This document shows, one piece after another, positions 462-31,360 of a stretch of DNA of 33,426 nt; positions within the stretch are counted from its first letter, which is position 1; each line of letters opens with the position of its first letter. The DNA lies in assembly GCA_016212215.1 (NCBI GenBank), contig JACRGV010000115.1, positions 1-33,426 on the forward strand, given 5' to 3'. The position numbers and the translations under genes were made by a program. Source of the DNA: Nitrospirota bacterium (GTDB lineage: Bacteria; Nitrospirota; 9FT-COMBO-42-15; HDB-SIOI813). The notes under the pieces were generated by a model. It did no database searches, was not told the origin of the DNA, and was given only the letters and a program-made list of their open reading frames with translations.

Positions 462-1925
462 CTATCCTATCTCCGGCCTCTTCTTATGCCACTCCGTAGC
501 CTGCTCATAGCTATATGCTATCTGCAATATCTTCTCTTCATCAAAATGCCTGCCGAGTATCTGCAATCCAACAGGGAGGTCTTCTTTTGTAAATCCGCAC
601 GGTATCGAGATACCGGGAATCCCCGCAAGGTTTACTGATATTGTGAATATATCTGATAGATACATCTCAAGGGGGTTCTGTGTCTTCTCTCCGACCTTGA
701 ATGCAGGTGTCGGTGAAGTTGGTGTCAGTATGGCATCTACCTGTGTAAATGCCTTATCAAAATCCCCTTTTATCAGGGTCCTGACCTGCTGTGCCTTTTT
801 GTAATAGGCATCATAATATCCTGCACTGAGGACATAAGTCCCAAGCATTATCCTCCTTTTGACTTCAGAACCGAATCCTTCATCCCTTGTCTTTTTGTAC
901 ATATCAATCAGGTCAACCGCATCCTTTGCCCTGTAACCGTATTTGGCCCCGTCATATCTGGCAAGGTTGGAGCTTGCCTCTGCTGTAGCAATAATATAAT
1001 AGACTGCAACTGCATATTCAGTATGCGGAAGGGAAATTTCAACTGTTTCAGCACCAAGCCCCTCAAGCACACTCAATGCCTTCTTCACACTATTTTCTAT
1101 TGAAGGTGCAAGGCCGCCGATGAAATACTCACGCGGGATACCAAGTCTCATACCTTTTATATCACGCCCCAAAACACTGAGATAATCAGGCACAGGTTGA
1201 TTAACAGAGGTGGAATCTTTACTGTCATGACCGCTTATGGCCTTTAACATTATTGCAGAATCAGTTACATCTTTTGTGATAGGTCCAATCTGGTCAAGTG
1301 ATGAAGCAAATGCAATCAGGCCATAACGTGAAACACGACCATAAGTCGGTTTAAACCCCACTACACCGCATAGGGCCGCTGGCTGGCGTATTGAGCCTCC
1401 GGTATCAGAACCGAGTGCCGCAATACATTCATCTGCTGCAACCGCAGCAGCAGAGCCGCCGCTTGAGCCGCCCGGTACTCTTTCAATATCCCATGGGTTT
1501 CTTGTAGTCTGAAATGCCGAGTTCTCTGTTGAAGAGCCCATTGCAAACTCATCCATATTGGTCATGCCGGTATGAACATAACCTTCATTCTCAAGCCGGT
1601 TGATTACATTTGCATTATATGGCGGGATAAAATTATAAAGTATCTTTGAGGCACAGGTAGTCGGCACACCCTCTGTGCATAGATTATCTTTTATTGCAAG
1701 CGGAATACCTGTAAGATAGGGGACATTCCCTCCACTGCTTATTACTTTGTCCGCATGTTCTGCCTGTGCGAACGCCTTGTCTTCTGTTAGAAACTGATAA
1801 GCACGAACCTTATCATTAACCTCATGTATTCTATCATAGACAGATGCAGTAATCTCACGGGATGAGACCTCTCCTTTTTTCAGAAGATCATGAAGCTCAT
1901 GTATTGTCAGACTATAAAGTTCCAC
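462..1925 (-). CDS. gatA: Glutamyl-tRNA(Gln)/aspartyl-tRNA(Asn) amidotransferase subunit A
   Basis: Amidase-signature subunit of the GatCAB complex. It hydrolyses glutamine and supplies ammonia to convert mischarged Glu-tRNA(Gln) or Asp-tRNA(Asn) in the cytoplasm. The GTG start at 1925 gives 487 residues and places the Ser-cisSer-Lys triad at Lys79, Ser154 (in [10 protein letters not shown]) and Ser178 (in GSDTGGS), the numbering known for GatA. The open frame extends 13 codons further upstream, but those codons are repeat DNA. A GGAG about 9 nt before the GTG lies in the repeat terminus GTGAGCTATGGAGA. It follows gatC and panD on the same strand; gatB is not in the window. Confidence 0.97.
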
Positions 1926-2140
1926 GCGAATATCTCCATAGCTCACCCTCCCCACAAAGAGCACCTATGCCAATTTATCCCCTCCCCCTTGAGGGGGGAG
2001 GGTTAGGGTGGGGGTGAGCAACGGCATCCCATGCTTCATAGTCTCACCCTCCCCCTGACCCCCTCCCCTCAAGGGAGGGGGAATAATCTAAGCATCCCTC
2101 TCTTACGTCTTGCTTCTAACTTCTTACTTCTGCTCCCTGC
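1926..2140. repeat. Intergenic palindromic and heptamer repeats between panD and gatA
   Basis: Two CT-rich inverted-repeat modules (about 1976-2020 and 2041-2085, C-rich run, short loop, G-rich run) are followed by a tract of TTCTAAC/TTCTTAC-type heptamers at about 2101-2138. The gatA-proximal end carries GTGAGCTATGGAGA, which also precedes the GT-C-like gene near 18764 and occurs reversed near 260-273. It supplies the gatA ribosome binding site. Confidence 0.8.
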
Positions 2141-2599: not shown

Positions 2600-2887
2600 C
2601 TACTCAATCACCTTAGGCACCCTGAAAAACTCCTCCGTCCTGTCAGGTGCATTCCCAAGCGCCTTTCTTCTCTCTATTGATTCTGTAGTCTTATCCTCCC
2701 TCATCACATTTTTAACCGGCAATGCATGAGAAGTCGGTTCTACATCCTTCGTATCAAGTTCATTCAACTTTTCCACATAAGTAAGGATGTCGCTCAGTTG
2801 AACAGTAAACTGCTCCATCTCTTCCTCTTTAAGAGCAAGCCTCGCAAGGTTCGCCACATGTTCCACTTCTTTTCTTGTTATCTTCAC
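2600..2887 (-). CDS. gatC: Glutamyl-tRNA(Gln)/aspartyl-tRNA(Asn) amidotransferase subunit C
   Basis: Small GatC subunit that wraps between GatA and GatB and stabilises the transamidosome. The product from GTG at 2887 has 95 residues, close to the usual size. It begins with VKITRKEVEHVANLARL, the typical GatC N-terminal helix, and ends with the conserved TEEFFRVPKVIE tail. The frame is open a further 27 codons upstream, but that segment has no GatC similarity. The start lies at the end of AAGGGATTTTCGAGTGAA, the terminus shared with dispersed repeats elsewhere in the window and the likely source of the AAGGGA ribosome binding site. First gene of gatC-panD-gatA. Confidence 0.93.
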   Translation of the reverse strand: MKITRKEVEHVANLARLALKEEEMEQFTVQLSDILTYVEKLNELDTKDVEPTSHALPVKNVMREDKTTESIERRKALGNAPDRTEEFFRVPKVIE

Positions 2888-2945
2888 TCGAAAATCCCTT
2901 TGTGTAAATATGCAGGAAGAAACTTCTCTTGAAATTCTGCCCCAC

Positions 2946-6398: not shown

Positions 6399-6401
6399 AA
6401 C

Positions 6402-7013: not shown

Positions 7014-7309
7014 AAAATATTCCAAAACTCATCATTGATTGCTTTCGAAAATTCAGGAGGGATATCAACAGATTCTTTCAAAATGTTTTCTGTAAATCTT
7101 TTAATGATTTGATATCTGTTTTGACCAATCAAGTCATAATATTGATCTGCTTTTGTTTCTTCCCATGAATATCTTTTTGAGACAATGGGTAAATCGTAGT
7201 TTTTGGAAGGTACAGGCAATGCGTCTTCTAAGGGATAACCCTGTAAAGCAATAAGAGATAGGGAAACTGGAATAATTAGCTTTGAAACAGTATTACGTGT
7301 TTCAGACAT
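7010..7309 (-). CDS. Unrecognised 99-aa protein of the three-gene cassette
   Basis: Small protein with no recognised domain. It has one hydrophobic N-terminal segment (about residues 10-25, KLIIPVSLSLIALQGYP), which is weak for a membrane anchor. The rest is charged and mainly helical, ending in KAINDEFWNIL. A strong Shine-Dalgarno GGAGG lies 7 nt before the ATG in the 13-bp gap after the TIGR04255-like gene, and the stop overlaps the next start as ATGA. Size and position would suit an antitoxin, adaptor or immunity-like partner of its neighbours; nothing in the sequence proves this. Confidence 0.75.
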   Translation of the reverse strand: MSETRNTVSKLIIPVSLSLIALQGYPLEDALPVPSKNYDLPIVSKRYSWEETKADQYYDLIGQNRYQIIKRFTENILKESVDIPPEFSKAINDEFWNIL

Positions 7310-7322
7310 TAGTCACCTCCAA

Positions 7323-8057: not shown

Positions 8058-8300
8058 AATTTTTTGGCCCGCACAAAACACCGGACTCCTGCCTGGGGAG
8101 AGTCGCTAAACTATTGCACATTCCAAAATGAAAAGCAAGACAGGGACTCAATAGCCCGTATTTTTGTGCCTGTTATTACAGGACTACCCTTTGAAATTTT
8201 TGTCCAACCGCTGACGTTCTCATAATATCCCTCCGGCTAATACTGATTTTTTCAGTTATATAGCATTTTTATTTATTATACAATCAAATTAAAATGAAAG
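8058..8300 (-). other. Gap between hsdS and the three-gene cassette
   Basis: No complete gene. One minus-strand stretch around 8110-8235 reads SKGSPVITGTKIRA after an in-frame stop, faintly like a DUF433 antitoxin core, but without a start or adequate length. A fragment near 8226-8240 resembles the edge of the hairpin-module repeat. The AT-rich part at 8255-8300 could hold a promoter for the cassette-hsdR genes, but no convincing -35/-10 pair was found. Confidence 0.45.
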
Positions 8301-9551
8301 TTAAACCGTAAGATCAATATCATTGACCCTTATCTGCGCTGTCATCAACTGGTGCAACAGGGTGCGGAAGAGGTCAGAAAGTAAGGCATGTTTGCGCTTG
8401 TGCAATTCTTCTTTCGCTGACAATGCATCAAGTGCGGCAACAATTTCGCGCTGCTCATTTAGCTGAGTATATGGAATAGGCAACTCCGCCAGCTTCGATT
8501 GAGATAAGTTCGGGATGGTCGTTACATTTCCCCTGCCAAAATACAGGTGCCCAAACTCAAACGCATACCAGAGCCAATACATCAAGAAGGCCGGCTCAAC
8601 ATTCTCGAGATTGACAGCCCTCACTCGATGAAGATGGTTTTGATGGTAACAAGCAGCCAACTCTCCGTTCCACATTGCTGTACGCCCAATGTCGCCACCC
8701 TCACAAACAAGCAGGTCTCCCGGCTGTAAGGTCAATCGCTTTTCTTCCGCTTCAGTGAAGTACATTTCGTCAAGTTCTGACAAATCAAGTCGGCCCCAAA
8801 AGACATTTTTCGTGCGGAGGAAAGGACACTGGTTATCGCCAATGCGGTTCTTCTTTGAAACCTGCTTACCTTGCTGAATTCGGAACAATGAGTCAAGGCG
8901 CACCACCTTCCAACTCTCCGGTACGGGGCCGATTTCGGTTTGTTTTTGGGGTTCGCCGTGCAGGCCCTGGGTGAAGAGTTGGTGGAGGAGTGTCTTTTTC
9001 AGTTCCGTAGTCAGTGCAATCAGCCGTTCCTGTTGCTCGATCGCCTGCTGTACCTGTCCCAACACTGCTGCAATTTTCCTCTGCTCGGGGAGGGGAGGAA
9101 CATAGAGTTTAAACTCTCGTAATGCCGCCCATGATGTACGCGGATGCTGAACACCCGATGTCGTTTTTTTTGAGTGACCTACGAACTCGTCTGTATGTGT
9201 CAAGAGGCATAAAAACTCAGGGATGCACTTCTCCGTCGCTCGGAATACGAGAATGTCTGTCGAACAGATGCCGTCCTCGCTCACCAACACGGACTTGCGA
9301 AGATAAGGACGCAGCTTGCCGAAAAGAATATCATCTTTGCGGAACGTTGTCTTGCCACTGCGAACATCAGATTCCTTTCCACGGCCCACCAGCGTGGGAA
9401 GCCCAGACGCAAGATGTTCAAGACCGAGATACAAACGTTGCCCGTTAGCCGAGGGCGACGCGGCGTCTTGGACACGCCTGCAAATGTCATCAAGTCTTGC
9501 TTGCATCCAACCGCGAGGAGGGTCTTCCAAGAGTAGCGAGTAGTCAGTCAT
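8301..9551 (-). CDS. hsdS: Type I restriction enzyme, specificity (S) subunit
   Basis: DNA-recognition subunit, 416 residues, with the usual two-part plan. Target recognition domain 1 covers about 1-155, followed by a conserved helical spacer (PLPEQRKIAAVLGQVQQAIE, about 155-200). Domain 2 starts near PESWKVVRLDSLFRIQQGK (about 213), and a second spacer begins at LNEQREIVAALDAL (about 365). Each half begins with the W-x(3)-L-D type motif. The recognition sequence cannot be predicted from here. The ATG lies 5 nt after the stop of a 34-codon ORF whose last codons contain the hsdS ribosome binding site (GGAGGGGGA). Confidence 0.95.
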   Translation of the reverse strand: MTDYSLLLEDPPRGWMQARLDDICRRVQDAASPSANGQRLYLGLEHLASGLPTLVGRGKESDVRSGKTTFRKDDILFGKLRPYLRKSVLVSEDGICSTDILVFRATEKCIPEFLCLLTHTDEFVGHSKKTTSGVQHPRTSWAALREFKLYVPPLPEQRKIAAVLGQVQQAIEQQERLIALTTELKKTLLHQLFTQGLHGEPQKQTEIGPVPESWKVVRLDSLFRIQQGKQVSKKNRIGDNQCPFLRTKNVFWGRLDLSELDEMYFTEAEEKRLTLQPGDLLVCEGGDIGRTAMWNGELAACYHQNHLHRVRAVNLENVEPAFLMYWLWYAFEFGHLYFGRGNVTTIPNLSQSKLAELPIPYTQLNEQREIVAALDALSAKEELHKRKHALLSDLFRTLLHQLMTAQIRVNDIDLTV

Positions 9552-9556
9552 TACAC

Positions 9557-9661
9557 CTATCCCCCTCCATACCGCACCTGTTGGTCCCGCACTATAAGTT
9601 CCCGCTTCCGTTCAATTACTGCCAACAACTCCTCCTCTGTGGGCAGGATCAAGTAATTCAT
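9557..9661 (-). CDS. Possible 34-residue leader ORF before hsdS
   Basis: ATG at 9661 opens a 34-codon frame whose product contains LPTEEELLAVIERKRELI and ends RDQQVRYGGG. It is strongly helical and charged, unlike the AT-rich repeats upstream. It stops 5 nt before the hsdS ATG and overlaps the hsdS ribosome binding site, so translation of the two could be coupled. It may be the C-terminal remnant of a larger R-M accessory gene rather than a functional small protein. No family is recognised. Confidence 0.45.
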   Translation of the reverse strand: MNYLILPTEEELLAVIERKRELIVRDQQVRYGGG

Positions 9662-9725
9662 AATTGAGAATCTGGAATTAGGAATGTAGAAAAACATTTC
9701 GTAATTCATAATTTGGAATTAGTAA
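9662..9725. repeat. AATTC-rich heptamer-type repeat before the 34-codon ORF
   Basis: Degenerate units such as TAATTCATAATT and GGAATTAGGAAT are related to the cleaner array at 10093-10157. The tract encodes the last residues of the four-helix-bundle gene (RITNSKL), so that C-terminus is repeat-derived. Confidence 0.6.
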
Positions 9726-10080
9726 TTCTTTTCGATTTCATAGTTTTGATGATGCTTCCTGTGAGCTTCAAGAGTTCTTCGCAGTCTGTGATGATAGAGG
9801 TAGATTCGTTTGCGCCGAGGTATCCGGAATCACGCAGCAGACGCAGCCAATAATGCGTCTCTCTCGCTTCTTTGTAGGCAATGCTCATTTTAGCCGAGAA
9901 ATCCCTTTCCGATTGTCCGCCAATAGCCTCCTCCACATTGGCCCCGATGGAGGTTCCGCTGCGCAGCACCTGTTTGGAAAGAACAAATTCCTTTTTCTGT
10001 TCCGATAGATGCTGATACAATTTCACCATCCGCAAGGCAAATGCATACGACTTTTCTTGAACAATATTATCATGTTTCAT
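9706..10080 (-). CDS. Four-helix-bundle protein (23S rRNA intervening-sequence type)
   Basis: A 124-residue all-helical protein of the bVP/S23 family, first known from ORFs in 23S rRNA intervening sequences. Typical motifs are visible: YAFALRMVKLYQ in helix 1, LSKQVLRSGTSIGANVEEA, then AKMSIAYKEARETHYWLRLL. Members form pentamers with a basic surface; the cellular role is unknown. The ATG at 10080 is chosen over two TTG codons just upstream because GGGG lies 8 nt before it. It sits between hsdM and hsdS, a common location for this family, where it behaves as a passenger or accessory gene. Confidence 0.9.
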   Translation of the reverse strand: MKHDNIVQEKSYAFALRMVKLYQHLSEQKKEFVLSKQVLRSGTSIGANVEEAIGGQSERDFSAKMSIAYKEARETHYWLRLLRDSGYLGANESTSIITDCEELLKLTGSIIKTMKSKRITNSKL

Positions 10081-10092
10081 CAACAAATCCCC

Positions 10093-10157
10093 ATTCTTAA
10101 TTCTTAATTCCTAATTCTTAATTCCTAATTCCTAATTCCTAATTCCTAATTCCTAAA
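10093..10157. repeat. (CTAATTC)n heptamer tandem repeat
   Basis: About nine units of TTCTTAA/CTAATTC phased every 7 nt fill the spacer between hsdM and the four-helix-bundle gene; the right half is nearly perfect CTAATTC. This is the cleanest of the heptamer tracts in the window. Confidence 0.85.
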
Positions 10158-10174
10158 TAACTCTTTCTCTTTCT

Positions 10175-11728
10175 TCATATCCCTATCCTTGATAGAATCG
10201 CCCGCAATGCCGCATTTGTTTCCTTTGCCTCCTCATCAAGGGCGTTCAGTTCCTCCACAATCTCCGTAATCGGCCGGTATTCTTCGGCTTCGCTCACATG
10301 GATGTAACGGCTGGGTGAGATGTTGTAGTCGTTCCTGACGATTTCTTCTTTTGTCACAATACGGCTGAACTTTTCTATCTCTTCCCATTTGAGGAAGGCC
10401 GAGGCGATTTTTCCGATTCCTTCTTCCGTGATATAGTTTTTCGGGTCGCCTTTGGCGAATTCCTTTGAGGCATTGACAAGGAAGAGCTTGTTCTTCCGGT
10501 CTGCCGGTTTCAATTTATTCAGGAAGAGGATGATCCCCGGTGCAGAGGTATTGTAGAAGAGGTTTTCCGGCAGGTAAAGCACCCCTTCCATAATATCATT
10601 TTCAACAAACCACTTGCGGACTTCCTTTTCCTTATTGCTGTTGGAATTGCCGGAGCCTCGGCTTGCTGCGCCGGTGTCAAAGACTACAGCGGCCTTTCCT
10701 CTGTCATTCAGGCTCGCAAAGATATGCTGCATCCAGCCCCAATCGGCCTTGTTTCCGGGGTATCCGGCGCCGTTAGGGAAGCGTCCGAATGTATCGGCAT
10801 TGTAATCCCTTTCCCCGAACATGGTCTGGTTCCACATGGGATTAGCAACTACGCGGTCAAAGGTCATGAGCCTATTGTTATCCCTGAACTTAGGATTACG
10901 GAAGGTGTCGCCTATTTCTATCTGACCTTCCATGTCATGAATAATCATGTTCATGTTGGCCATGGCCCAGGTCTGGGCGATGTATTCCTGTCCGTAGAGT
11001 GTCAACCCGGAAAACTTCTTTCTCCCCTGACCCTGCATCTTTTCATTCAGCGCCAGTTCACATTTTATAAGAAGCCCTGCGGAGCCGCAGCAGGGGTCGT
11101 AGATGGTCATCCCATGTTCGGGGTTCATAATCTTTGCCATTATCATACCCACTTCTTTCGGAGTGTAGAATTCCCCGGCGCTCTGCCCGCCCCCTTCGGC
11201 GAACTTGCGTATGAGATATTCGTAACTTCTGCCGATGATGTCCGGTTCTACGTCATTAAGCCCAAGACGTTTAGTACTGACCTTTTCTATGAGATTGGAA
11301 AGCCTGTCATCATCTATATCACGTACGCCGTGGGTCGTGGCATTAAAGTCCACACGGTCAATAATTCCGGAAAGAAGGGGGTTTTCTTTGGCAACAGCGC
11401 GCAGGTGCGTTGTAAGGGTTTCACCAATTTTAGCAGTCAGTTTGCGGATAGCAGTCCAGACCGGCTCTTCTGCATTATTTGATTTCAGGGGGATATAAAA
11501 CCGTACCAGCTTTTTATCATGTTCAACGAGTCTGAATGCCTTCTCTCTTGAACCGACTTCTGACGCAATCCGGTTGATTTCATCATCAAAGACATCGCAG
11601 AGACGTTTAACAAAGATGAGTGGCAGGATGAAATCTTTATACTTAGGGGCGTCAACAGCACCGTGGATACTGCACGCTGCATCCCATATCCATGATTCCA
11701 TTGACTTGTTTTCTGGTTCTTTAGCCAT
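10175..11728 (-). CDS. hsdM: Type I restriction enzyme, methyltransferase (M) subunit
   Basis: N6-adenine DNA methyltransferase that modifies the site read by HsdS, 517 residues. The helical HsdM N-domain (about 5-150, starting WIWDAACSIHGAVDAPKYKD) is followed by the catalytic domain. SAM-binding motif I reads DPCCGSAG (211-218), with GEFYTPKEV (185-193) just before it, and catalytic motif IV reads NPMW (296-299) in place of the commoner NPPF. A start at ATG 11728 has GAAGG 6 nt upstream. It is the first R-M gene after the right direct repeat and probably begins the operon. Confidence 0.96.
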   Translation of the reverse strand: MAKEPENKSMESWIWDAACSIHGAVDAPKYKDFILPLIFVKRLCDVFDDEINRIASEVGSREKAFRLVEHDKKLVRFYIPLKSNNAEEPVWTAIRKLTAKIGETLTTHLRAVAKENPLLSGIIDRVDFNATTHGVRDIDDDRLSNLIEKVSTKRLGLNDVEPDIIGRSYEYLIRKFAEGGGQSAGEFYTPKEVGMIMAKIMNPEHGMTIYDPCCGSAGLLIKCELALNEKMQGQGRKKFSGLTLYGQEYIAQTWAMANMNMIIHDMEGQIEIGDTFRNPKFRDNNRLMTFDRVVANPMWNQTMFGERDYNADTFGRFPNGAGYPGNKADWGWMQHIFASLNDRGKAAVVFDTGAASRGSGNSNSNKEKEVRKWFVENDIMEGVLYLPENLFYNTSAPGIILFLNKLKPADRKNKLFLVNASKEFAKGDPKNYITEEGIGKIASAFLKWEEIEKFSRIVTKEEIVRNDYNISPSRYIHVSEAEEYRPITEIVEELNALDEEAKETNAALRAILSRIGI

Positions 11729-13546: not shown

Positions 13547-13881
13547 AGCAAAATCCCCTCTTCCCTGATCCTTTTCCCTACTCCGATGTCCCCCTTTAAC
13601 AAGGCATCTTCAATGACAATTGGGCTTAATATGAGTTCTCCACTGATATTCATCTCTTCAACAATCTTTATAGAGGCATCCAACACACTGCGGGTGACAT
13701 CCTTGATCATCTCCCTGTCTTTAACAACAACAGCAATGTCAATATCACTCTCAATACTCCCTTCCCCCCTTGCCCTCGACCCAAAAAGATATACAGACTC
13801 AACATCTATTAATTCTCTGATAACCTCAATGAACCGCTTGATCAAAACTTCCTCTAACGGAGTAAGTGTCTCAGTATACAT
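13504..13881 (-). CDS. MNT-type nucleotidyltransferase (antitoxin-like)
   Basis: Minimal nucleotidyltransferase of 125 residues with the signature VYLFGSRARGEGSIESDIDI, that is GS-x10-DxD, around residues 30-50. The metal-binding aspartates are intact, so AMP or similar transfer to the partner HEPN protein is plausible. The first 79 bp of the gene region (13808-13886) occur again, unchanged, at 24032-24110 behind uvrD. No clear Shine-Dalgarno precedes the ATG at 13881. A second, diverged MNT/HEPN pair lies at 29109-29872. Confidence 0.88.
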   Translation of the reverse strand: MYTETLTPLEEVLIKRFIEVIRELIDVESVYLFGSRARGEGSIESDIDIAVVVKDREMIKDVTRSVLDASIKIVEEMNISGELILSPIVIEDALLKGDIGVGKRIREEGILLWSKRSEKKRETAT

Positions 13882-13886
13882 GTTGG
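13808..13886 (-). repeat. 79-bp exact direct repeat, source copy in the nucleotidyltransferase gene
   Basis: Identical over all 79 positions to 24032-24110 and in the same orientation; flanks differ on both sides. It spans the start codon, the first 24 codons of the nucleotidyltransferase and five bases upstream. Confidence 0.92.
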
Positions 13887-14215: not shown

Positions 14216-15115
14216 TTGGAAACAGCCTCAAGATTATTTTCATATTTGGGATTTATCATTTATCCATGTAAATCATCCATCCATGTAATAAGTATTCAAC
14301 TATATTTGTTGCTCCTTTTATTTTCCGGTAATGTTTATGCAAGTCCGTGGATGCAGAGTGAAGGGGATTCTGTAGGTTCTACCGGCATCAGCTATTCACA
14401 GGCCGATAGTTTCTGGAAGAGGGATGGTAAGCTTATGCAATATACCGATAAACATCAGGAGGCTACGTACTATTTGTACGGTGAGTACGGCTATTCTTAT
14501 TATTACAACCTGATCGCCTCAACCGGTTGGAACTACAGAGACGATGGTATAAGAACAAACAACAGTATTGATGACATTAAGATTGGGATAAGGGGGAGGC
14601 TCAACCGGTTTCGTAACGGCAGGACATGGCAGGTTAATGCGATATTACCAACCAGACGAGGTAATTTGCTTGGTTCCCGCCCTGATGGCGGCAAAGCCGG
14701 GATTGATGCAGGTATTTATTATCGCATCGAGCCTGACCCATATCTAAACCCTTTTACAGTCCACAATAAAGGCATCTGGGGCGGAGGATTCGGCATAACC
14801 TTACGCAGCGGGGGAATCGGCAGTGAATTGTGGGCTTATGGTAAATGGGAAAAGAATGTAATAACTCCATCATGGCAGGCAGGATTCAGATTATCAGCAC
14901 TTTCTTCATTCGCAGGAGCAGAATCCGGAAGTGTTGATATATATGGCCCTAATGATAGTTACCATTATCATCAGATCAACTCAGAGTTCCTGCTGAAATA
15001 CCAACTGAATAGGACAACGACTATCAATACATCTTATGTCATGGACTTAGATGGAAGTAATATTAACCGAAACAGTGGCGTGCATATCGGCATATCAACG
15101 AACTGGAAGAAATGA
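14216..15115 (+). CDS. Predicted outer-membrane beta-barrel protein
   Basis: Exported protein with a hydrophobic signal segment (about 27-42, LYLLLLLFSGNVYA) and a likely cleavage before SPWMQSEG. The mature part has alternating aromatic/polar strands typical of barrels (ATYYLYGEYGYSYYYN, IDAGIYYRIEPDP, INTSYVMDLDG) and ends HIGISTNWKK. No named family is recognised; a channel for the polysaccharide cluster it heads is possible. The start is uncertain: TTG at 14216 has GGAG 5 nt upstream but gives a long n-region, and a TTG ten codons later is also in frame. It is transcribed in line with the following genes. Confidence 0.65.
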   Translation: METASRLFSYLGFIIYPCKSSIHVISIQLYLLLLLFSGNVYASPWMQSEGDSVGSTGISYSQADSFWKRDGKLMQYTDKHQEATYYLYGEYGYSYYYNLIASTGWNYRDDGIRTNNSIDDIKIGIRGRLNRFRNGRTWQVNAILPTRRGNLLGSRPDGGKAGIDAGIYYRIEPDPYLNPFTVHNKGIWGGGFGITLRSGGIGSELWAYGKWEKNVITPSWQAGFRLSALSSFAGAESGSVDIYGPNDSYHYHQINSEFLLKYQLNRTTTINTSYVMDLDGSNINRNSGVHIGISTNWKK

Positions 15116-15116
15116 T

Positions 15117-15290
15117 AGCATGAGCCGTTGGCTCACAAAGGAGCAAGGGAATCCCCCCTCTTAAGATAAGAGGGGGGATAGGGGGAGTTATGAAATGCAT
15201 AGAAGAACGATGCATCCATAGCGATAACCCCCCTTGCCCCCCTTAATTTAAGGGGGGAGCCATTTGCGTTAAAAAAGGATTTTCGGATGA
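15117..15290 (+). repeat. Hairpin-module repeat filling the gap before the CotH-like gene
   Basis: It begins TGAGCCGTTGGCTCACAAAGG directly after the barrel gene, contains two long CT/GA palindromes (about 15150-15185 and 15224-15260) around an ATGCAT-containing core, and ends AAGGATTTTCGGATGAAG. The ATG of the CotH-like gene is part of this end. A diverged copy of the same layout follows that gene at 17083-17270. Confidence 0.85.
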
Positions 15291-17086
15291 AGATAAATCA
15301 GATAATCATTTTAACAGCAATTATTTTGTTCATGGGATGGATTGATGCAGGTGCGGCAGAAAACCATTTCAAGACGCTTGACCTTGAAATGGATACTAAG
15401 GATGCGGAGGTACTGTTCCGCAAGGAACCTTATGATACATCTACTTTCCCTGTAGATATTGTAGAAAATGGCACTCGCATTTCCGGCCGTGTTGAAGTAT
15501 CCGGACAATTTACCCGCACATTTCTCAAAAAGTCCTTACTGATAAGAATTAACGAAGGACATACATGGCAGGGCAACAGAAAAATATCCCTTCACTCTAT
15601 GTCTACTGACCCTTCATATATGCGTGATTGGATAGCGTGGAACCTGGCGTCTTCACTCGGCATGGCCTCTCCAAAAGTAGAATATTACCGGCTGAATATT
15701 AACGGAAAATTCATCGGCCTTTATCTGTTTATCGAATGGATTGATACGTCTATGCTTAACCGCATTGGGCTTGGGAAAGACGGTGAATTCTATCACCCGG
15801 ATGACATTGTATACTGCGGTGACATGGAGCCTGCAAATCAAGGTCGTTTGGAAGAGTGTTGGTTAAAGCTTTCTCCTAAAGACAGGGATTTTGCCTCTCT
15901 GCGTAATCTGATTGAGGAGATTAATTCAACACCGGTTGAGCAGTTCCACAGCTTTTTAAATGAGCATTTTGATGTAGACTCAGTAATTAACTGGCTGGTC
16001 TTAAATACCATAATAGGTAATGGCGATACATACAATAAGAACTACTTCCTCTATCACAGCAAAAAAACAGGTAAATGGGTAATTATCCCATGGGATTTTG
16101 ATCTTACCTTCGGACGCAATGCCGACCCTGTCCTGCCGTTTCCGAGTAATATCCTTAATGATAATTATCAGTATTTTTATACACCTGAGCTTGGCAGTCC
16201 CAACCCATTAAAAGAAAAGACATTAAAGAATGACCAGTTGTTTCAGTACTTTAAAAAACGTATCAGCCATGTCCTCGGTGTAACAATAGAAAAGGAGCAG
16301 CAGGGATTTTTTGAGAAACTACGCAAGGAAAGTAAGCCTGTCGGCGGTTTTGCATGGTTCCGTCCTAATGAATTTAATAGTCTTGTGAACTCATTGGAGC
16401 TTACTATTAAACAGGACTTATCAAAAGAGCTGTATCCGGGTGCAAAAGGGGAACCTTTTGAGCAACAGGTTGAGGCATTGCGATTATACAATCAATGGCG
16501 TTATCCTCTTCTTAAAAAAATGATCCTTGAGCCCACACCATTTAATACTGCCCATTGGCTGCCATACTTCACGTTTCCGCCATTAACACTGCCCGGTGAG
16601 GATGAAAAAAAACTACGTCAGACAGTTCAATTGAATATGACTGCGAGTGCTGAAATCAGAGAAGGTGATAAATCTGTAGTGCTTATGGAGGAGCTTCTCG
16701 CAAGACCAGTCGGCATACTTTATATACAGGAATTGAATAGACCTGCACGAGTCAGGTTAGAGGTTGAGACAGAGCGTATCCCTGAATCGTTGCCACCTGA
16801 AATAAGCCCGTTAAAATGTATACAGCGTACATGGTATCTTGATATCAAAACCCCTGATACTCTCCTTAAGGTTAATCTGCAATTGGATTATCTTCAGGAA
16901 AGTTCCCTCCGGCATGAGCTGGGGGATGGGATAACAGATGAGCATAATATGTCGTTGTGGGTACTACAAAACAACAACTGGCGGAGACTGCAAACGGGTG
17001 TAAACGTAATCGCAAATGTATTAAAAGCCGGGGGCATAGAATTAGTTTCAGGCAGTGTATTACGCTTTGCCGCCTGCGAGGAATGA
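15287..17086 (+). CDS. CotH kinase family protein, exported
   Basis: A 599-residue protein with a Sec signal peptide (about 1-24, IIILTAIILFMGWIDAGAA). It carries the CotH protein-kinase-like domain: early FKKS-type strand (FLKKSLLIRIN), then YRLNINGKFIGLYLFIEWID, then KNYFLYHSKKTGKWVIIPWD and DFDLTFGRN, which holds the metal-binding Asp. A C-terminal beta-rich extension (about 430-599) is unassigned. CotH proteins phosphorylate or otherwise modify extracellular proteins and often accompany exopolysaccharide genes; the substrate here is unknown. The start codon and its AAGGA ribosome binding site belong to the flanking repeat. The following repeat overlaps its TGA stop. Confidence 0.88.
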   Translation: MKINQIIILTAIILFMGWIDAGAAENHFKTLDLEMDTKDAEVLFRKEPYDTSTFPVDIVENGTRISGRVEVSGQFTRTFLKKSLLIRINEGHTWQGNRKISLHSMSTDPSYMRDWIAWNLASSLGMASPKVEYYRLNINGKFIGLYLFIEWIDTSMLNRIGLGKDGEFYHPDDIVYCGDMEPANQGRLEECWLKLSPKDRDFASLRNLIEEINSTPVEQFHSFLNEHFDVDSVINWLVLNTIIGNGDTYNKNYFLYHSKKTGKWVIIPWDFDLTFGRNADPVLPFPSNILNDNYQYFYTPELGSPNPLKEKTLKNDQLFQYFKKRISHVLGVTIEKEQQGFFEKLRKESKPVGGFAWFRPNEFNSLVNSLELTIKQDLSKELYPGAKGEPFEQQVEALRLYNQWRYPLLKKMILEPTPFNTAHWLPYFTFPPLTLPGEDEKKLRQTVQLNMTASAEIREGDKSVVLMEELLARPVGILYIQELNRPARVRLEVETERIPESLPPEISPLKCIQRTWYLDIKTPDTLLKVNLQLDYLQESSLRHELGDGITDEHNMSLWVLQNNNWRRLQTGVNVIANVLKAGGIELVSGSVLRFAACEE

Positions 17087-17270
17087 GGCCCCCTCACAAA
17101 GGCACAAAGGGCAAAGAGAATCCCCCCTCTTAAGATTAAGAGGGGGAAGGGGGAGTTATGAAGTGCGTAGAAAAACGATGCATCATAGCTATAACCCCCT
17201 CTTTCCCCCTTAAATTAAGGGGGATGATTAAGGGCAATCGGTGTTAAGAAGGGATTTTTGAGTGAATAAT
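17083..17270 (+). repeat. Hairpin-module repeat after the CotH-like gene
   Basis: Starts ATGAGGCCCCCTCACAAAGG, overlapping the upstream stop, and ends AAGGGATTTTTGAGTGAA. The interior follows the 15117-15290 copy closely, including the TCCCCCCTCTTAAGAT arm and the ACGATGCATC core. Together the two copies bracket the CotH-like gene as direct repeats. Confidence 0.85.
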
Positions 17271-17323: not shown

Positions 17324-18676
17324 ATGGACGTTGTTTGGACACTGCGTATACCGTTATTACTGTTTTTTGCTGCCTATATTGTAAAGGAACTGTGGATATT
17401 GCGTGCCCATGAGAGATGGCATGCGATCCTGATGTTCAGTTATTTCTTTCTCATCATCTCTACATATTGGCTTATCAAGCCTGTTAAAAAGGCCCTGCTT
17501 GTTGGTTATTATCAGGTCTCAGGCTTGACTTTAGCCGGTTGGTATCTTGATGCCGCACAGGTTGAGCTGATAGCAAAAGAGTTAAATATGTTCCTTGCAC
17601 TTGCGGCAGCGATATTATTTTCCTGGCTTGCCTCCCGTTACAAACGTGAAAGATTGACCCTTTTCATTACCGGAATGTTTGCGCTGGGATTTGCCCTTTT
17701 TGCCTCTGCCCTTCTCAATCCCGCACACATCACTGTCTGGATGTTTTATTTATTTGGAGACATCTTCGTTACGATTATGGTGGCAGGCTTTTTCGCGTTT
17801 CTTAATGACAGCGAAGATGTGCACACTGCACGCCGTCTCTATGGCCTGATCGGACTTGGAGGAATCATGGGCGGTTTCTTCGGCAGTGCAGTAGTTGCCG
17901 GATATTCCAGAAAGATAGAGCCGTCTACGGCATCATTGGCCTGTGTGGGGCTGTTGGTATTGATTGCCGGAATCTCATGGTTATTCGGCAGACTGGTTAA
18001 GAGGACTACACCGGTAGATTTACCTGCTGCCGCCTCTGTTGCAGGGTATAAGGTATTACAGCACGGGGTAAAGACAGTGCTATGCTCGCCCTATCTGCTT
18101 GGCATAGCCGCTATCGTAGGGCTGTATGAAATGGTCTCATCTATAATGGATTATCAGTTTACTAACACGGTTCTGCATTTTGTTTCAGGCGACCAGCTAA
18201 AGGCACATTTTGCAAGTGTTTATTCTTTTACGAACTTCATTTCTCTGATACTTCAGGTCTTTATCACCCGGATGGTGATGGTCAGATATGGGGTGGACAA
18301 GGCATTGTTTTTCCTGCCGGTAACAGCTACCTTGGGAGAGGCCGCATTCATTCTTCTTCCAGGCCTGCTGGCGGGGAGCCTTCTTAATACTATGGATAAT
18401 GCCTTCAGCTATTCCATCAATCAATCAGCCAAAGAGGTCTTGTATGTGCCGGTAGAACGGGAGGAAAAATACAAGGCAAAGGCATTGATTGATATTTTTA
18501 TACTACGCGGGGCAAAGGCAATAGCCGTGGCACTCAGCCTTGTACTGGCACTCGTATTCGCAGGGTTTGAGAGTGTGAGATGGCTATCAATAATTGTGGT
18601 TGGCCTGTTAATAGTATGGCTGTTGGTTATCCGGTACATTGGCCAGAGGTACAGAAAAATGGAACGAGGAGTTTGA
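17324..18676 (+). CDS. Npt1/Npt2 (TlcC)-type nucleotide carrier-like membrane protein
   Basis: A 450-residue integral membrane protein with about 11-12 predicted helices. Segments such as STYWLIKPVKKALLVGYY, TARRLYGLIGLGGIMGGFFG and NQSAKEVLYVPVEREEKYKA are typical of the ATP/ADP-carrier-like TlcC family, where the Lys-rich loops contact nucleotide. Free-living bacteria also carry distant members of unknown substrate, so nucleotide exchange is not certain. The start is unclear: ATG 17324 lacks a good ribosome binding site, while AAAGGAGGG at 17275-17283 lies far upstream, close to an in-frame CTG at 17288. It lies within the polysaccharide cluster between two repeat-filled gaps. Confidence 0.8.
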   Translation: MDVVWTLRIPLLLFFAAYIVKELWILRAHERWHAILMFSYFFLIISTYWLIKPVKKALLVGYYQVSGLTLAGWYLDAAQVELIAKELNMFLALAAAILFSWLASRYKRERLTLFITGMFALGFALFASALLNPAHITVWMFYLFGDIFVTIMVAGFFAFLNDSEDVHTARRLYGLIGLGGIMGGFFGSAVVAGYSRKIEPSTASLACVGLLVLIAGISWLFGRLVKRTTPVDLPAAASVAGYKVLQHGVKTVLCSPYLLGIAAIVGLYEMVSSIMDYQFTNTVLHFVSGDQLKAHFASVYSFTNFISLILQVFITRMVMVRYGVDKALFFLPVTATLGEAAFILLPGLLAGSLLNTMDNAFSYSINQSAKEVLYVPVEREEKYKAKALIDIFILRGAKAIAVALSLVLALVFAGFESVRWLSIIVVGLLIVWLLVIRYIGQRYRKMERGV

Positions 18677-18787
18677 GATGAGGCCCCCTCACCCGGACCC
18701 GCCGGGGGAGAGGGGAGTCTGAGATTATTCCCCCTCCCTTGACGGGAGGGGGTTAGGGGGAGGGTGAGCTATGGAGACTTTCATGTG
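18677..18787 (+). repeat. Palindromic repeat before the GT-C-like gene
   Basis: Begins ATGAGGCCCCCTCAC just after the carrier stop, as at 17083, and ends GGGTGAGCTATGGAGA followed by CTTTCATGTGAAG, as before gatA. Two CT/GA inverted repeats lie between. It fills the entire gap and supplies the GGAG ribosome binding site of the next gene. Confidence 0.8.
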
Positions 18788-20194
18788 AAGACCAAGTACT
18801 CAAAATATAACTTACTTCTCATTCTAATACCCGTCTATTTCCTTATCTACTTCTCAATAAATCACCTGCTGGAAGGGCATAACCTCATGCACCCATATCT
18901 CTTATTTTATGGAGAAAAGGCCCTCCTTGCCTTGAATGGTGTACCGCCGAGGCTTGAGAACATAGGATTTATATATCCTCCTCTTCCGATTGTTATTTCC
19001 CTATTATTCATGGCGAATATATCCATTACACAGGGCTTCATCGCATCACTGATCAGTGCATTCATATCATGGGAAATCATTAACAACATTCAATCTAAAA
19101 AACTTGCCATCACACTTATCTTCTTCCTGATCTTCTCCATCCCAATCCTTTTTCTTGCTACCCAGAGATTTGATCTATACCTCCATTTCTTCTTTATTAT
19201 TTACAGTATCAAACTGTTGTATCAATATGTGAGACAGGAATACTCACTATATATTTTCACAGCAGGTCCACTGTTCGGGTTGTCTTTTTTTACGCATTTC
19301 AGCTCAATTTACCTCATCCCCTGGATATTTATTATTATATTCTTTCTGTACAGGAAGACCCTTAGGAAATTTATGGCAGTATCCTTTGTCTATTTTTCCC
19401 CTTATTTCCTCTTTTTCCTCTCCTTTGCATACCTCAACTGGGTATTCACAGGAAAGGCATTCGGGTTTCTCCCAAATTACAAACTGCTGTTTTCCAATTC
19501 AGAAATTACTGCCGCTATCTCTGCGGGAAGCATTACAGGGAGTTTATGGTTCATGCTTTCATATCTGCTGAAAGTAATACTCATAATAGCCCCTTTCCTT
19601 GCAGGAATTTTTTATGAAAAAAGACTTGTTTCATTAATCCCTTTCCTTGTCATCTTTTCTCTGATATATTCTAATCTCTTCTATCCGGCCATCTATGTAT
19701 CCTCAATATTTATTATATATTTCCTGATATTAATGAACTTTGAAAAAAAAGAAGCACATAATGTATTTATTGCTGCAATGGTTATCAGCCTTACATCCTC
19801 TTTTATACTTGCTTTAAATTCAAATGACGCATATGAGAGAAAATTTACTCATGCACTAACAGGTTCAATTGAAGAGAATACAGGGGGATACAAACAGATT
19901 GCAGAGATACTTAAATATAAAAAAGGGAAGATTTTGATTGATGATCAGGGTTTTTATCCTGTTGTCTATTTAATGAAGGACCCTGAACGGTTTATCCTTC
20001 CCTACCAGTATGAATTTAACTCAGCTATTGCAAATCCTGCCCTATTTGCCGATTATGTAATAGGTATGAAAGATAAAAACATGGATAAGGTATACCGGCG
20101 GTTTGAATATGGGGTAAAAGGATACTACACTATATTTGAAAACAAGGACATTATAATATGGGAGAAGACAAAATTAAGAGACAAAACGTCTTAA
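18785..20194 (+). CDS. Polytopic membrane protein, GT-C/GT39-like glycosyltransferase candidate
   Basis: A 469-residue membrane protein with 10 or more hydrophobic helices and a soluble C-terminal part (about 370-469). The first periplasmic loop (HPYLLFYGEKALLALNG, then GFIYPPLP) resembles GT-C enzymes, which use polyprenyl-phosphate sugars, but the diagnostic Asp pair is not clear, so this is tentative. GTG at 18785 is chosen since GGAG lies 8 nt before it; an earlier ATG seven codons upstream is repeat DNA. Its end overlaps the BcsB-like gene by 37 bp, so the two are co-transcribed and probably work in the same polysaccharide pathway. Confidence 0.65.
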   Translation: MKTKYSKYNLLLILIPVYFLIYFSINHLLEGHNLMHPYLLFYGEKALLALNGVPPRLENIGFIYPPLPIVISLLFMANISITQGFIASLISAFISWEIINNIQSKKLAITLIFFLIFSIPILFLATQRFDLYLHFFFIIYSIKLLYQYVRQEYSLYIFTAGPLFGLSFFTHFSSIYLIPWIFIIIFFLYRKTLRKFMAVSFVYFSPYFLFFLSFAYLNWVFTGKAFGFLPNYKLLFSNSEITAAISAGSITGSLWFMLSYLLKVILIIAPFLAGIFYEKRLVSLIPFLVIFSLIYSNLFYPAIYVSSIFIIYFLILMNFEKKEAHNVFIAAMVISLTSSFILALNSNDAYERKFTHALTGSIEENTGGYKQIAEILKYKKGKILIDDQGFYPVVYLMKDPERFILPYQYEFNSAIANPALFADYVIGMKDKNMDKVYRRFEYGVKGYYTIFENKDIIIWEKTKLRDKTS

Positions 20195-24117: not shown

Positions 24118-26495
24118 ATCACCTCAAGTTTCGCATATTTAACCACGAGTGTCTTTAACCCTTCTGAGGGGAATTTTACAGTCACCTTTTCCATCTCTCC
24201 TGCCCCTTCAGAATGTTCAACAACACCCACTCCCCACATTGAGTGGCGAACACGGTCGCCGGATTTAAACCGGCCTTTGGTTCTGTTGTTCATGTTGTGC
24301 CGTACTGGTGCACCCGAATATCCCTCCGGCGGGGTTAGAAAACCCCGCCTATCCATATAGGTATTTAGGATAGGCGGGACATTCTTGTCCCGCCTATTTT
24401 CATCCCCTTTTGTAAGCCCCCGTCTCACGATGGGTTCGTAAGGAGTCTTGTTCTCTGTATAACTATATGATGGATTCTTCCTCTGAAAATCCTGCCCGTA
24501 GGTATAGTTATCTTTATTTGCAATCTCTATCCTGACATTTTTGCTCTTTTTTATCTCACGGAGGAATCTTGATTCCCTTCTCCTCTGCGTCTGACCGAAA
24601 AGATTTCTCTCAGAGGCAGCGGTCATATACAGATGTTCCCTTGCCCTTGTAATTCCCACATAGCAGAGACGCCGCTCTTCCTCCAACTCTTCGACATTAT
24701 CAAACGCTCTGGCATGCGGTAGCGTCCCTTCCTCAAGCCCTGCAATAAAGACAACCGGAAACTCAAGCCCCTTGGCACTGTGGAGCGTCATCAGTGAAAC
24801 CATATTTTTTGCCGCATGGTCAGGTGATTTACCGGGGTCATGATTAAGCTCATCCTCGCTTAACAGGCTTACATCATCCAGATATTTACTGATAGCAGCG
24901 CCGGCCAAATTAGGTTCCTTCTCTTCAAACCTCTTGACTGCCGCGAGCAGTTCCATCACGTTCTCTTCCCTGTCCTCATAATTCTCATCTTTCCTTAAAG
25001 CCTCAATATAACCTGTCAGCTCAAATATCTTTTTCACAAACTCTGAAGGCGAGAGTTCCCTTACAAGCACCCTGAGTTTTTCTACAAGGTCATAAAATTT
25101 TCCAAGTTTCGGTGTGGATGTTAGGACTTGCGAAACACTCCCATACATGGAAGTCCCGTTGCTTATAGAATAATCCTCCAGCATCTTTATCGTTGTCGTC
25201 CCGATACCTCTTGGCGGCACATTTATTATCCTGCGAAGGCTCACATCATCATCCGGTCTTAGAGAGACCCTGATATAAGCCAGAATATCCTTAATCTCTT
25301 TCCTCTCATAGAACCTGATACCGCCGATTATTTTGTATGGGATACCGGATTCCTTCATCACCTCTTCAATCGCCCTTGACTGTGCATTTGTCCTGTAGAG
25401 TATTGCAAACTGTGATGGTGTCTTTCCATGTATTAACAACGTCTTTATCTCCCTCACAATATACTTTGCCTCTTCCCTCTCATCTGCAACCTTGCAAAAT
25501 AATACAGGCTCTCCTGAAGGGTTCTCAGTCCATAATTTCTTATCCCTCCTATCTGAGTTTTCCTCTATTAACGAGCCGGCCACATCAAGGATAGCGCCGG
25601 TAGAGCGGTAATTCTGCTCAAGCCTGATAATCATAGCTGTTGGATAATCATGGTCAAAACTGAGGATATTCTTTAACTCAGCACCTCTGAAGCGGTATAT
25701 ACTCTGGTCATCATCACCTACAACACAGAGGTTCTTATGCTTATCTGCAAGCAATTGTATCAACTTGTACTGCGACGGGTTCGTGTCCTGATACTCGTCC
25801 ACAAGGATATATCTGAATGTCTCCTGATACCTGCTCAACAGCTCAGGATTGTTCTCAAAAAGATTAACGCATTTCATAATAAGGTCATCAAAATCCATTG
25901 CATTATTCTTCTTCAGCTTATCTTCATAAAGGCGGAAAACCTTCAACACCTTATCATCCATACCAAAGCCATGTGACTGCATCGCAAACTGCTGAGGCGT
26001 AATCAGTCTCCCCTTCATATAAGATATCCGGCTCCCGATGGAGTTCACAGAATATTGCTCTTCATTTATATTAAGCTCCTTAACACACTCCTTAATCAGA
26101 CTCAACTGATCACCCTTGTCATAAATATAAAAATCATTCCGGAACCCGATGAGCTGTCCATATCTCCTGAGCAGACGAAGACAGATTGAGTGAAAAGTAC
26201 CGATCCATAAGCTGCCCAAATGACCTCTGACTTCCTGCATCTTACTGTTTACTGCTAACTGCTTACTGCTCACTAATTTTAAAATGCGTTCCTTCATCTC
26301 CTCCGCAGCCTTATTAGTAAAAGTAACCGCCAAGATATTCTCCGGAGAAACCCCGTGATTATAAATCAGATTGGCAATACGATAAATAATAACACGCGTC
26401 TTCCCGCTCCCTGCACCTGCAATAACAAGAAGAGGCCCGTCAATATATTCAACAGCCTTACGCTGGGGTGGGTTAAGATGACTGAGGTCTATCAT
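24114..26495 (-). CDS. UvrD/PcrA-family ATP-dependent DNA helicase
   Basis: SF1A 3'-5' helicase for excision repair, replication restart and removal of RecA or transcription blocks. Motif I is GAGSGKT (27-33); motif Ia is around AVTFTNKAA; motif II reads ILVDEYQDTN; motif III is GDDDQSIYRFRGA; later come LEQNYRS, VSLMTLHSAKGLEF and RRLCYVGITRA. The C-terminal RFKSGDRVRHSMWGVGVV is the Tudor-like PcrA tail. At 793 residues it is longer than most PcrA/UvrD proteins. Two insertions explain this: heptamer-repeat residues near 74-87 and about 50 residues of a dispersed repeat near 686-736. Both keep the frame and fall in linkers. Confidence 0.93.
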   Translation of the reverse strand: MIDLSHLNPPQRKAVEYIDGPLLVIAGAGSGKTRVIIYRIANLIYNHGVSPENILAVTFTNKAAEEMKERILKLVSSKQLAVNSKMQEVRGHLGSLWIGTFHSICLRLLRRYGQLIGFRNDFYIYDKGDQLSLIKECVKELNINEEQYSVNSIGSRISYMKGRLITPQQFAMQSHGFGMDDKVLKVFRLYEDKLKKNNAMDFDDLIMKCVNLFENNPELLSRYQETFRYILVDEYQDTNPSQYKLIQLLADKHKNLCVVGDDDQSIYRFRGAELKNILSFDHDYPTAMIIRLEQNYRSTGAILDVAGSLIEENSDRRDKKLWTENPSGEPVLFCKVADEREEAKYIVREIKTLLIHGKTPSQFAILYRTNAQSRAIEEVMKESGIPYKIIGGIRFYERKEIKDILAYIRVSLRPDDDVSLRRIINVPPRGIGTTTIKMLEDYSISNGTSMYGSVSQVLTSTPKLGKFYDLVEKLRVLVRELSPSEFVKKIFELTGYIEALRKDENYEDREENVMELLAAVKRFEEKEPNLAGAAISKYLDDVSLLSEDELNHDPGKSPDHAAKNMVSLMTLHSAKGLEFPVVFIAGLEEGTLPHARAFDNVEELEEERRLCYVGITRAREHLYMTAASERNLFGQTQRRRESRFLREIKKSKNVRIEIANKDNYTYGQDFQRKNPSYSYTENKTPYEPIVRRGLTKGDENRRDKNVPPILNTYMDRRGFLTPPEGYSGAPVRHNMNNRTKGRFKSGDRVRHSMWGVGVVEHSEGAGEMEKVTVKFPSEGLKTLVVKYAKLEVI
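24287..24440 (-). repeat. Hairpin-module repeat inserted in frame in uvrD, copy B
   Basis: Core 24322-24402 matches copy A (141-218) and copy C (31241-31320), with CGGGG..CCCCG, CCTATCC..GGATAGG and CGGGACA..TGTCCCG hairpins. Similarity extends outward on both sides to the terminus-like GGAGGGATATTCGGGTG. On the minus strand it is read as part of uvrD and gives residues such as RRDKNVPPILNTYMDRRG. Confidence 0.88.
26236..26273 (-). repeat. AGCAGTA heptamer repeat inside uvrD
   Basis: On the minus strand: AGCAGTA, AGCAGTT, AGCAGTA, AACAGTA and a decayed unit, phased every 7 nt. It encodes SSKQLAVNSKM between motif I and motif Ia of the helicase, where homologues usually have a short loop. Confidence 0.75.
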
Positions 26496-29987: not shown

Positions 29988-31232
29988 TTATTCAAAGATA
30001 CTTATCGTCCCGTACTCCCCGTCATATCCCGGTGCTATCTTAACCTTTCCATCTCTTACCCTTGCGATTCCTTCGGCAATCATGGGGGTACTGACATCTT
30101 CTATCTCTTTTACAGGGATGTCCTGAAGTATGGAAAGTTCATTGCCGAGGGCGGAAATTAATTTATTATACATGGCCGCTACTTTTTTTGTATTAACACC
30201 GGCATCATATACCTCTGCGATTATCTCCTGAAGAGGGATGAGCCTCCTGAACGGTATGGCCCCTTCCGGCATGTCACCCTCTTTCCTGTCTGCAAGGTCA
30301 TCTACCCGATGCATTACACCTACTGTAACTCTGCCGCCGCATTTGAGGCATAATCCGTTGTTCTGTTTTGTTTCTGAAGGTGTCATCCTCTGCTTGCAAT
30401 CCCTGTGGCCGTCAAGATGATATTTTCCTTCCTCAGGAAAGTATTCTATTGTGCCGATAAATCTTGATTTATCTTTTGTCTTTATTGCCTCATAGATTGC
30501 GTTATACGAGAGTTCTGTATTGAATATGTTTGCCTCTCTCGCGAGTTTAGAGGGTGAGTGTGCGTCAGAGTTTGATATAAAGGCAACTCGGTCAAGCCCT
30601 GACAACCTCCAGTTCATAAGCGGGTCAGAGGAAAGCCCTGTCTCAATCGCATAGATATGAGGTGTCAGCTCTTCAAAACACTCTTCAAGAGAGTTGAATC
30701 CGGAGTTTGAGCCGAGCACAGCAAAATGCGGTGTCCATGCATGTGCAGGGACAAACAGGACATCAGGAGAGGATTGAAGTGTCAGATTCAAAAGCACCTT
30801 GCTGTCAAGTCCAAGTATGGGCCTCCCGTCCGACTTCAGATTTCCTATTTTTGAAAGTACAGTGTTAATTTTCTCTGCTGCATTAAATGAAGGTACTATA
30901 AGGAGATTATGAACCTTGCGGGTGCGGCCGTTCTTACTGTATATACAGCTAATCTCTGCTGAGAGGATAAACCTTACATCACTGCGGCAGATCGAAGGCA
31001 CATTGTTATCGCCTGCGGTTTTAAATTCCGGTTTGAGTTTAAACAGCCCTTGTTCAGCAGGCTCCAGTTTTTTCTGTATATTTGCAAACCACGCAGGATG
31101 CGTAAAGTCTCCTGTACCGATTACAGAGATACCCTTTATCTGTGCATACCTGTTAAGCGTCTCAATCTCCATATCCGGACTCGTCGCCCTTGAGTATGGT
31201 GAGTGAATGTGAAAGTCAGCTTTAAATTTCAT
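29988..31232 (-). CDS. Endonuclease Q-like PHP-domain protein
   Basis: A 414-residue PHP phosphoesterase-type protein of the TIGR00375/EndoQ group. Metal-site motifs include DFHIHSPYSRATS at the N-terminus, GTGDFTHPAW, the VPAHAWTP region and ISNSDAHSPSKLARE. A zinc-binding segment (CLKCGGRVTVGVMHRVDDLA) follows near residue 290, as in archaeal EndoQ. EndoQ enzymes cut 5' of deaminated bases such as uracil and hypoxanthine and start alternative excision repair; in bacteria the family is patchy. The ATG at 31232 sits at the end of repeat copy C, which provides a GGGGGA ribosome binding site. Confidence 0.87.
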   Translation of the reverse strand: MKFKADFHIHSPYSRATSPDMEIETLNRYAQIKGISVIGTGDFTHPAWFANIQKKLEPAEQGLFKLKPEFKTAGDNNVPSICRSDVRFILSAEISCIYSKNGRTRKVHNLLIVPSFNAAEKINTVLSKIGNLKSDGRPILGLDSKVLLNLTLQSSPDVLFVPAHAWTPHFAVLGSNSGFNSLEECFEELTPHIYAIETGLSSDPLMNWRLSGLDRVAFISNSDAHSPSKLAREANIFNTELSYNAIYEAIKTKDKSRFIGTIEYFPEEGKYHLDGHRDCKQRMTPSETKQNNGLCLKCGGRVTVGVMHRVDDLADRKEGDMPEGAIPFRRLIPLQEIIAEVYDAGVNTKKVAAMYNKLISALGNELSILQDIPVKEIEDVSTPMIAEGIARVRDGKVKIAPGYDGEYGTISIFE

Positions 31233-31320
31233 ACAAAATCCCCCGGCGGGGTTGGAAAACCCCGCCTATCCACACATAGATTGAGGATAGGAGGGACATT
31301 CTTGTCCCGCTGATTTTTAT
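31233..31320 (-). repeat. Hairpin-module repeat, copy C, abutting the EndoQ-like start
   Basis: The same triple-hairpin core as copies A and B (31241-31320). On the minus strand it ends GGGGGATTTTGTATGAA, so the terminus is continuous with the ATG of the EndoQ-like gene. Confidence 0.88.
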
Positions 31321-31360
31321 GGCTCTGGTACATGAAGGTACATAATCGTCTCAAAATTTC

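Follow-up and report, generated by a model that had tools for sequence, protein, structure and literature searches.

The palindromic repeats described here are probably short, non-autonomous mobile elements that insert at the pentamer RTGAA and leave RTGAA on both sides of themselves. The units share one composite anatomy, carry RTGAA at both ends, coincide with start codons, lie in frame within protein genes, and are missing from the corresponding loci of relatives. Their common 3' end is GGATTTTCGGRTGAA, which, allowing up to one mismatch, has 328 matches in the 2.99-Mb genome, 89 of them exact, while the reversed-pattern control gave 0. Exact matches occur in 10 of 10 sampled species' genomes of the host family and in 0 of 51 other genomes of the phylum. 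The detailed survey of elements covered 713 kb of sampled stretches, or 24% of the genome. The window (the whole stretch of 33,426 nucleotides analyzed) has 9 matches with up to 3 mismatches versus 2.6 expected; the exact or near matches are at 127-141(-), 248-262(-), 2883-2897(-), 15277-15291(+), and 17252-17266(+). Several contigs, including that of the window (C115), start ~130 nt from such an end, and hence the repeat also breaks the assembly.

Aligned copies, ~90 to 330 bp long, yield the consensus RTGAA-[optional hairpin CYNNCATGAGC..GCTCACAAAGG-NN-RTGAA]-AAYC-(palindromic module)-GATTTTCGG-RTGAA, and the hairpin-bearing form reads RTGAAC-YNNCATGAGC-loop-GCTCACAAAGG-NN-RTGAAAAYC-module-GATTTTCGG-RTGAA. 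At least six unrelated palindromes serve as the central module, the commonest being M1 (CGGGACAAGAA..CCCGCC; 103 copies in 713 kb) and M2 (TCCCTCCCCTTCAAGGGGAGGG; 105 copies in the same 713 kb). M1 also occurs without the 5' hairpin, still preceded by an RTGAAAATCAG-like sequence, and both forms of the M1 element are bounded by RTGAA-like sequence. A short inverted repeat, GAAAATC/GATTTTC, lies at the element ends with RTGAA on both sides. The 713 kb contain 119 complete units in 82 clusters, each of 1 to 4 units arranged head to tail. In support of an RTGAA target, 15 of 25 solitary 5' ends differ from ATGAAC by no more than one mismatch (control, 5.5%). The 5' ends of solitary copies are degenerate all the same, which makes the duplication approximate in many cases. 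The right-hand RTGAA could be a true target duplication or a part of the element; both yield identical sequence and cannot be separated. A fixed position of stop codons at the 5' end was considered and rejected, as stops lie nearby but are scattered. The M1 cores from the 713 kb have a mean identity of 93% and include 15 identical pairs, and such near-identical copies suggest a recent spread.

The original prediction for the window was that unrelated genes take their leader and start from one shared repeat end and that the repeats fill gaps from a stop codon to the next start; both points are borne out. The CotH kinase gene is preceded by a complete unit (15109..15291, + strand), the 5' end of which is RTGA-like and overlaps the stop before it (15113-15115). 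Next come a hairpin (CATGAGCC..GGCTCAC) and a palindromic module rich in C/G, and the unit closes with the 3' end GGATTTTCGGATGAA, in which ATG 15287 starts the CotH gene. A second copy of this type follows the CotH gene (17082..17266, + strand); its 5' ATGAGG contains the CotH stop (17084-17086), and its 3' end, GGATTTTTGAGTGAA, does not serve as a start. The 10-codon open reading frame noted there, at 17262, is not a gene, and a transporter gene starts at 17324. This gene (17324-18676) encodes a TLC ATP/ADP transporter domain, of a kind that elsewhere characterizes intracellular bacteria and plastids, and adjoins the CotH-like and BcsB-like genes. From its stop (18674-18676), a GAGGCCCCCTCACCCGGACCC..GAGCTATGGAG-type unit (18675..18789, + strand) runs to GTG 18785 of the next gene, and divergent units upstream of gatA (1923..2098, - strand; GAGCTATGGAGATATTCGCGTGGAA) place the gatA start, GTG 1925, at a unit end; both starts had been predicted as repeat ends, and the 3' end at 18785 is likewise divergent (GGAGACTTTCATGTGAAG). 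The EndoQ-like gene start, ATG 31232, is carried by the 3' end, GGATTTTGTATGAAA, of an M1-type element without the 5' hairpin (31230..31325, - strand). The gatC gene also has such an end at its start, GTG 2887, but there the claim of a repeat-started gene holds for the terminal ~20 nt only: the fragment CACAAAGGGATTTTCGAGTGAA (2883..2906, - strand) has no full repeat body. The gatC start reads ATGAA in G004 and GTGAA in G003. The predicted gene-free copies with the same end belong to an array at the contig end (1..345, - strand), composed of a module (CCCCACCCTCACCC..), a hairpin, an M1 module, a hairpin, and a module beginning CCCTCCC, with 3' ends at 127-141 and 248-262.

The window has further features. 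Many stop-to-start gaps contain, beside palindromic units, a degenerate AAGAAGTTAGAAGTAAGAGGCAAG-type filler (2099-2129 and 2548-2592 in the window; leaders in L041, L053, and L060). The gatC (2600-2887) and uvrD (24114-26495) genes are 21 kb apart in the window; in G003 and G004 (L253, L263), gatC directly follows uvrD, with stop and start overlapping or close. An exact 79-bp direct duplication (13808-13886 and 24032-24110, 10.2 kb apart) is unrelated to the palindromic family. The type I restriction-modification genes hsdR, hsdS, and hsdM occupy 3447-11728, with extra small open reading frames in between.

Relatives provide empty versions of occupied sites. Between a GGDEF-like and a CheW-like gene, the empty site in G001 reads TGA-TTACCAA|ATGAACATG and the occupied site in G000 reads TGA-GCCAAAAATGAA|CCGTCATGAGCC..ATTTTCGG|ATGAATCTT (right end also given as GGGGATTTTCGG|ATGAATCTT); the old leader is on the left of the insert, the gene is on the right, and ATGAA flanks the insert on both sides. 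The genes lolD and macB overlap by 4 nt in five relatives (ATGA in G001, G003, G006, and G008; GTGA in G009) and are split by units in G000 and G004, where both genes are whole. The pattern at leuC/leuD is similar. Some sites hold different modules in G000 and G001 (leuD, purD, and, in frame, PyrK), indicating that sites are reused or modules exchanged. NadD and some other insertion sites also have other filler repeats or lost residues. It has to be considered whether existing arrays spread by homologous recombination and gene conversion and not by transposition. The differing modules at one site fit this explanation, as does the uvrA-glcD gap of G001, where a bare 3' end remains as if an array had collapsed; however, the clean empty sites (L245, macB) need new insertion, and we regard recombination as quite improbable.

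How, then, do the ends come to lie at start codons? Of 263 ends with up to 2 mismatches in the 713 kb, 100 are inside arrays, 49 provide start codons opening at least 60 codons, 31 are called in frame inside long open reading frames, with some weak matches among them due to chance, and 83 are none of these. Start codons are 2.4 times commoner (odds ratio) at non-array ends than at element-free non-coding RTGAA sites (49:81 versus 187:737; P = 2.5e-5). From their N-termini, we take the genes begun by element ends to include purD, leuD, kdsA, kdsC, hisB, macB, nadB, lspA, trxB, mreD, recR, proB, and gatC. Orthologues that lack the unit start at the corresponding residue, and their start reads RTGAA in 39 of 65 cases (60%; 29 genes), compared with 40 of 299 (13%) SD-supported starts of long open reading frames by crude start calling. 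Hence, RTGAA predates the element, and the start codon is its landing site. The original idea that the repeat lands with a ready-made translation start survives in part: an SD-like leader is supplied, whereas the start codon was already there.

In its stronger form, this idea would have the repeat carry ribosome binding site and start codon as cargo and donate them to the downstream gene, displacing the original start. The first base of the start indeed sometimes differs from that in element-free relatives (purD and trxB have GTG in G000 versus ATG; mreD has ATG versus GTG), RTGAA is conserved also in arrays with no gene after it, and SD-like sequence is enriched at starts (upstream of 67% of start ends versus 49% of array ends; P = 0.037). 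Nevertheless, the first-base discordance, at about 6 of 20 genes, is no clearer than among the element-free relatives themselves, and their starts, as described above, lie at the matching residue and for the most part already read RTGAA. Donation of the start is therefore unlikely. The SD enrichment suggests that the sequence at these ends is used as a ribosome binding site; it is modest, and the contribution of the element would appear to be the upstream SD-like and spacer sequence. Because the excess over free RTGAA sites is just 2.4-fold, the target sequence together with selection against coding insertions would account for the greater part of the overlap with start codons, leaving a modest extra.

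Could the motif be no mobile repeat but a leader conserved in certain genes, or an RNA regulator such as an attenuator or riboswitch? Strong hairpins (z -5 and -7) do lie in the 5' leaders of biosynthetic genes. However, the orthologous genes of relatives have either an empty leader or one with a different module; only 49 of the 263 ends are starts; and the units have no match in Rfam, which excludes a known RNA family for them. Copies of the same sequence in frame inside proteins refute this reading, and we give it next to no weight.

These in-frame copies, in the window and elsewhere, had escaped the original prediction. In the window, a unit (24309..24433, - strand) is inserted in frame in the PcrA/UvrD helicase gene (24114-26495) and has no counterpart in UvrD of 6 relatives. 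Its peptide, LTKGDENRRDKNVPPILNTYMDRRGFLTPPEGYS / RRGLTKGDENRRDKNVPPILNTYMDRRGFLTPPEGYSGA, lies in the linker that joins the helicase C domain to the tudor domain, and the flanking domains are intact. Inserts of G000 are missing from UvrD, NadD, NadB, PyrK, a U32 peptidase, and a polymerase-like protein of relatives, and G001 has its own in-frame copies in other proteins, presumably CheA/W-like and MurI-like. Of the 103 M1 copies in the 713 kb, 17 are inside long open reading frames, all in one sense frame; by our reading, the other two sense frames hold stops, and one antisense frame is open yet unused. The in-frame peptide is 30 to 60 residues long (..LTKGHENQRDKNVPPILxxxMDRRGFLTPPEGFSDE..), and in UvrD and NadD it spans ..NVPPIL..DRRGFLTPPEGFS... 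At least four tandem TPR/membrane glycosyltransferase-like paralogues (L047:8753-18000) share the same in-frame M1 remnant, DIQRDKNVPPIDSRGFLTP, and a single M1 insertion copied by gene duplication accounts for this sharing.

We infer that an enzyme inserts the elements by transposition, with RTGAA as the recognized target, and that the leader they bring is used in translation. Each insertion would regenerate the target, allowing units to chain head to tail. Insertion at a gene start (ATG AAR/AAY) would turn the right-hand RTGAA into the start codon and make a leader of the element end, where GGAAGG or GGAG often lies 8 to 9 nt upstream. At a stop/start overlap (ATGA), the left copy would preserve the upstream stop and the right copy the downstream start, so that neither gene is broken. 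Within a gene, at (A/G)AT-GAA, copies of a length divisible by three would add a peptide of 30 to 60 residues, and copies elsewhere in genes would be lost by selection. A target left on both sides would thus give rise to arrays, fixed orientation, stop-to-start filling, start codons, and in-frame sites at D/N-E. A more far-reaching version, which we put forward tentatively as having slightly less than an even chance, is that an element whose target matches starts and stop/start overlaps, and whose ends restore SD and start, enters operons between coupled genes, breaks neither, and uncouples them, so that initiation at the downstream gene takes place in a new region made by the element. Extrapolated from 49 in 24% of the genome, about 200 genes would start in this manner.

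As to the mover, single-strand transposition of the IS200/IS605 type (HUH, Y1), in which the target stays on the left and the right end has a matching cleavage site, as in REP/RAYT, would account for the subterminal hairpins, an orientation that is fixed with respect to the target, the RTGA found at either end, and the insertion beside a short fixed sequence. Against it, the ends have no GTAG tag and no Y1 transposase (PF01797) was found in the 100%-complete genome that has the most copies; PF01797 is present in 7 of 10 genomes of the host family. We consider this route doubtful. A search for a reverse transcriptase in the genome found none. IS110 was rejected as the mover, being present as a single copy in the genome and not linked to units, as was an autonomous copy: the 713 kb contain no transposase open reading frame between such ends.

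Protein-coding palindromes are an oddity best known from Rickettsia and Wolbachia. Our data add another bacterium with hundreds of such palindromes, here with a readable target and with empty sites in relatives, which makes the insertion mode of such elements testable. One simple rule would cover start-codon use, stop-to-start filling, arrays, and in-frame peptides. Caution is warranted with gene starts and conserved-protein alignments in this lineage, as they contain element-made leaders and peptides. The M1 palindrome core is also found in Omnitrophota, Schekmanbacteria, and Dadabacteria (L162-L181), usually with its arms in reverse order and without RTGAA ends, as a plain intergenic repeat that is not in frame, a hint that palindrome cores have moved between phyla or have a common origin.

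Among known elements, REP/BIME sequences of the GTAG and CGTC superfamilies are likewise palindromes in hundreds of copies, sometimes inside open reading frames; GTAG REP ends often give the stop codon TAG to flanking reading frames, and CGTC REPs have no transposase (PMC3733652). The units described here differ in being longer and composite, with direct-repeat RTGAA ends and an orientation that follows that of the downstream gene; they end at start and not at stop codons. They lack the unpaired GTAG tag at the hairpin foot (the ends are RTGAAC..CATGAGC and ATTTTCGGRTGAA) and have no RAYT/Y1 transposase in their own genome. CGTC REPs have a CGTC/TGTC/CCTC tag, then AT, an 8- to 9-bp stem, and a 4- to 5-nt loop; the hairpin here frequently follows CGTC, TGTC, or CCTC, with a stem of only 5 to 6 bp and an unpaired first A. 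ERIC/RU-1, YPAL/RU-2, RU-3, and other MITEs are small mobile repeats with terminal inverted repeats and open reading frames fused into genes (PMC2759123, PMC2229807), and enterobacterial RU elements carry open reading frames (PMC2759123). Our units may resemble them in these respects, with the short GAAAATC/GATTTTC as a candidate terminal inverted repeat; they differ in having RTGAA as target and no TA flanks, and the 713 kb hold no parent IS with the same ends. The open-licence papers yielded no element with a start-codon-context target, no insertion sequences targeting ATGA overlaps, and no start-codon use by Rickettsia palindromic elements (RPEs). RPEs and Wolbachia palindromic elements are palindromes of 100 to 150 bp, found between genes and in frame in unrelated housekeeping proteins (Ogata 2000, 2002, 2005, cited in PMC2229807, PMC10969869); they have a constant open frame and no known mover (PMC2229807, PMC3767692, PMC10969869). 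RPE-4, -6, and -7 are rich in ATGAC (PMC3767692). Our elements come from a different bacterial family, differ in sequence, are modular with many alternative cores, form head-to-tail arrays, have RTGAA on both sides, and lend that end as a start codon. Like RPEs, a 128-nt unit forms a long stem-loop palindrome (-58 kcal/mol, z -5.2), and copies are inserted in frame in unrelated protein genes and absent from the orthologues. Judged by these features, the elements appear to be RPE-like in behavior, with RTGAA as their target.
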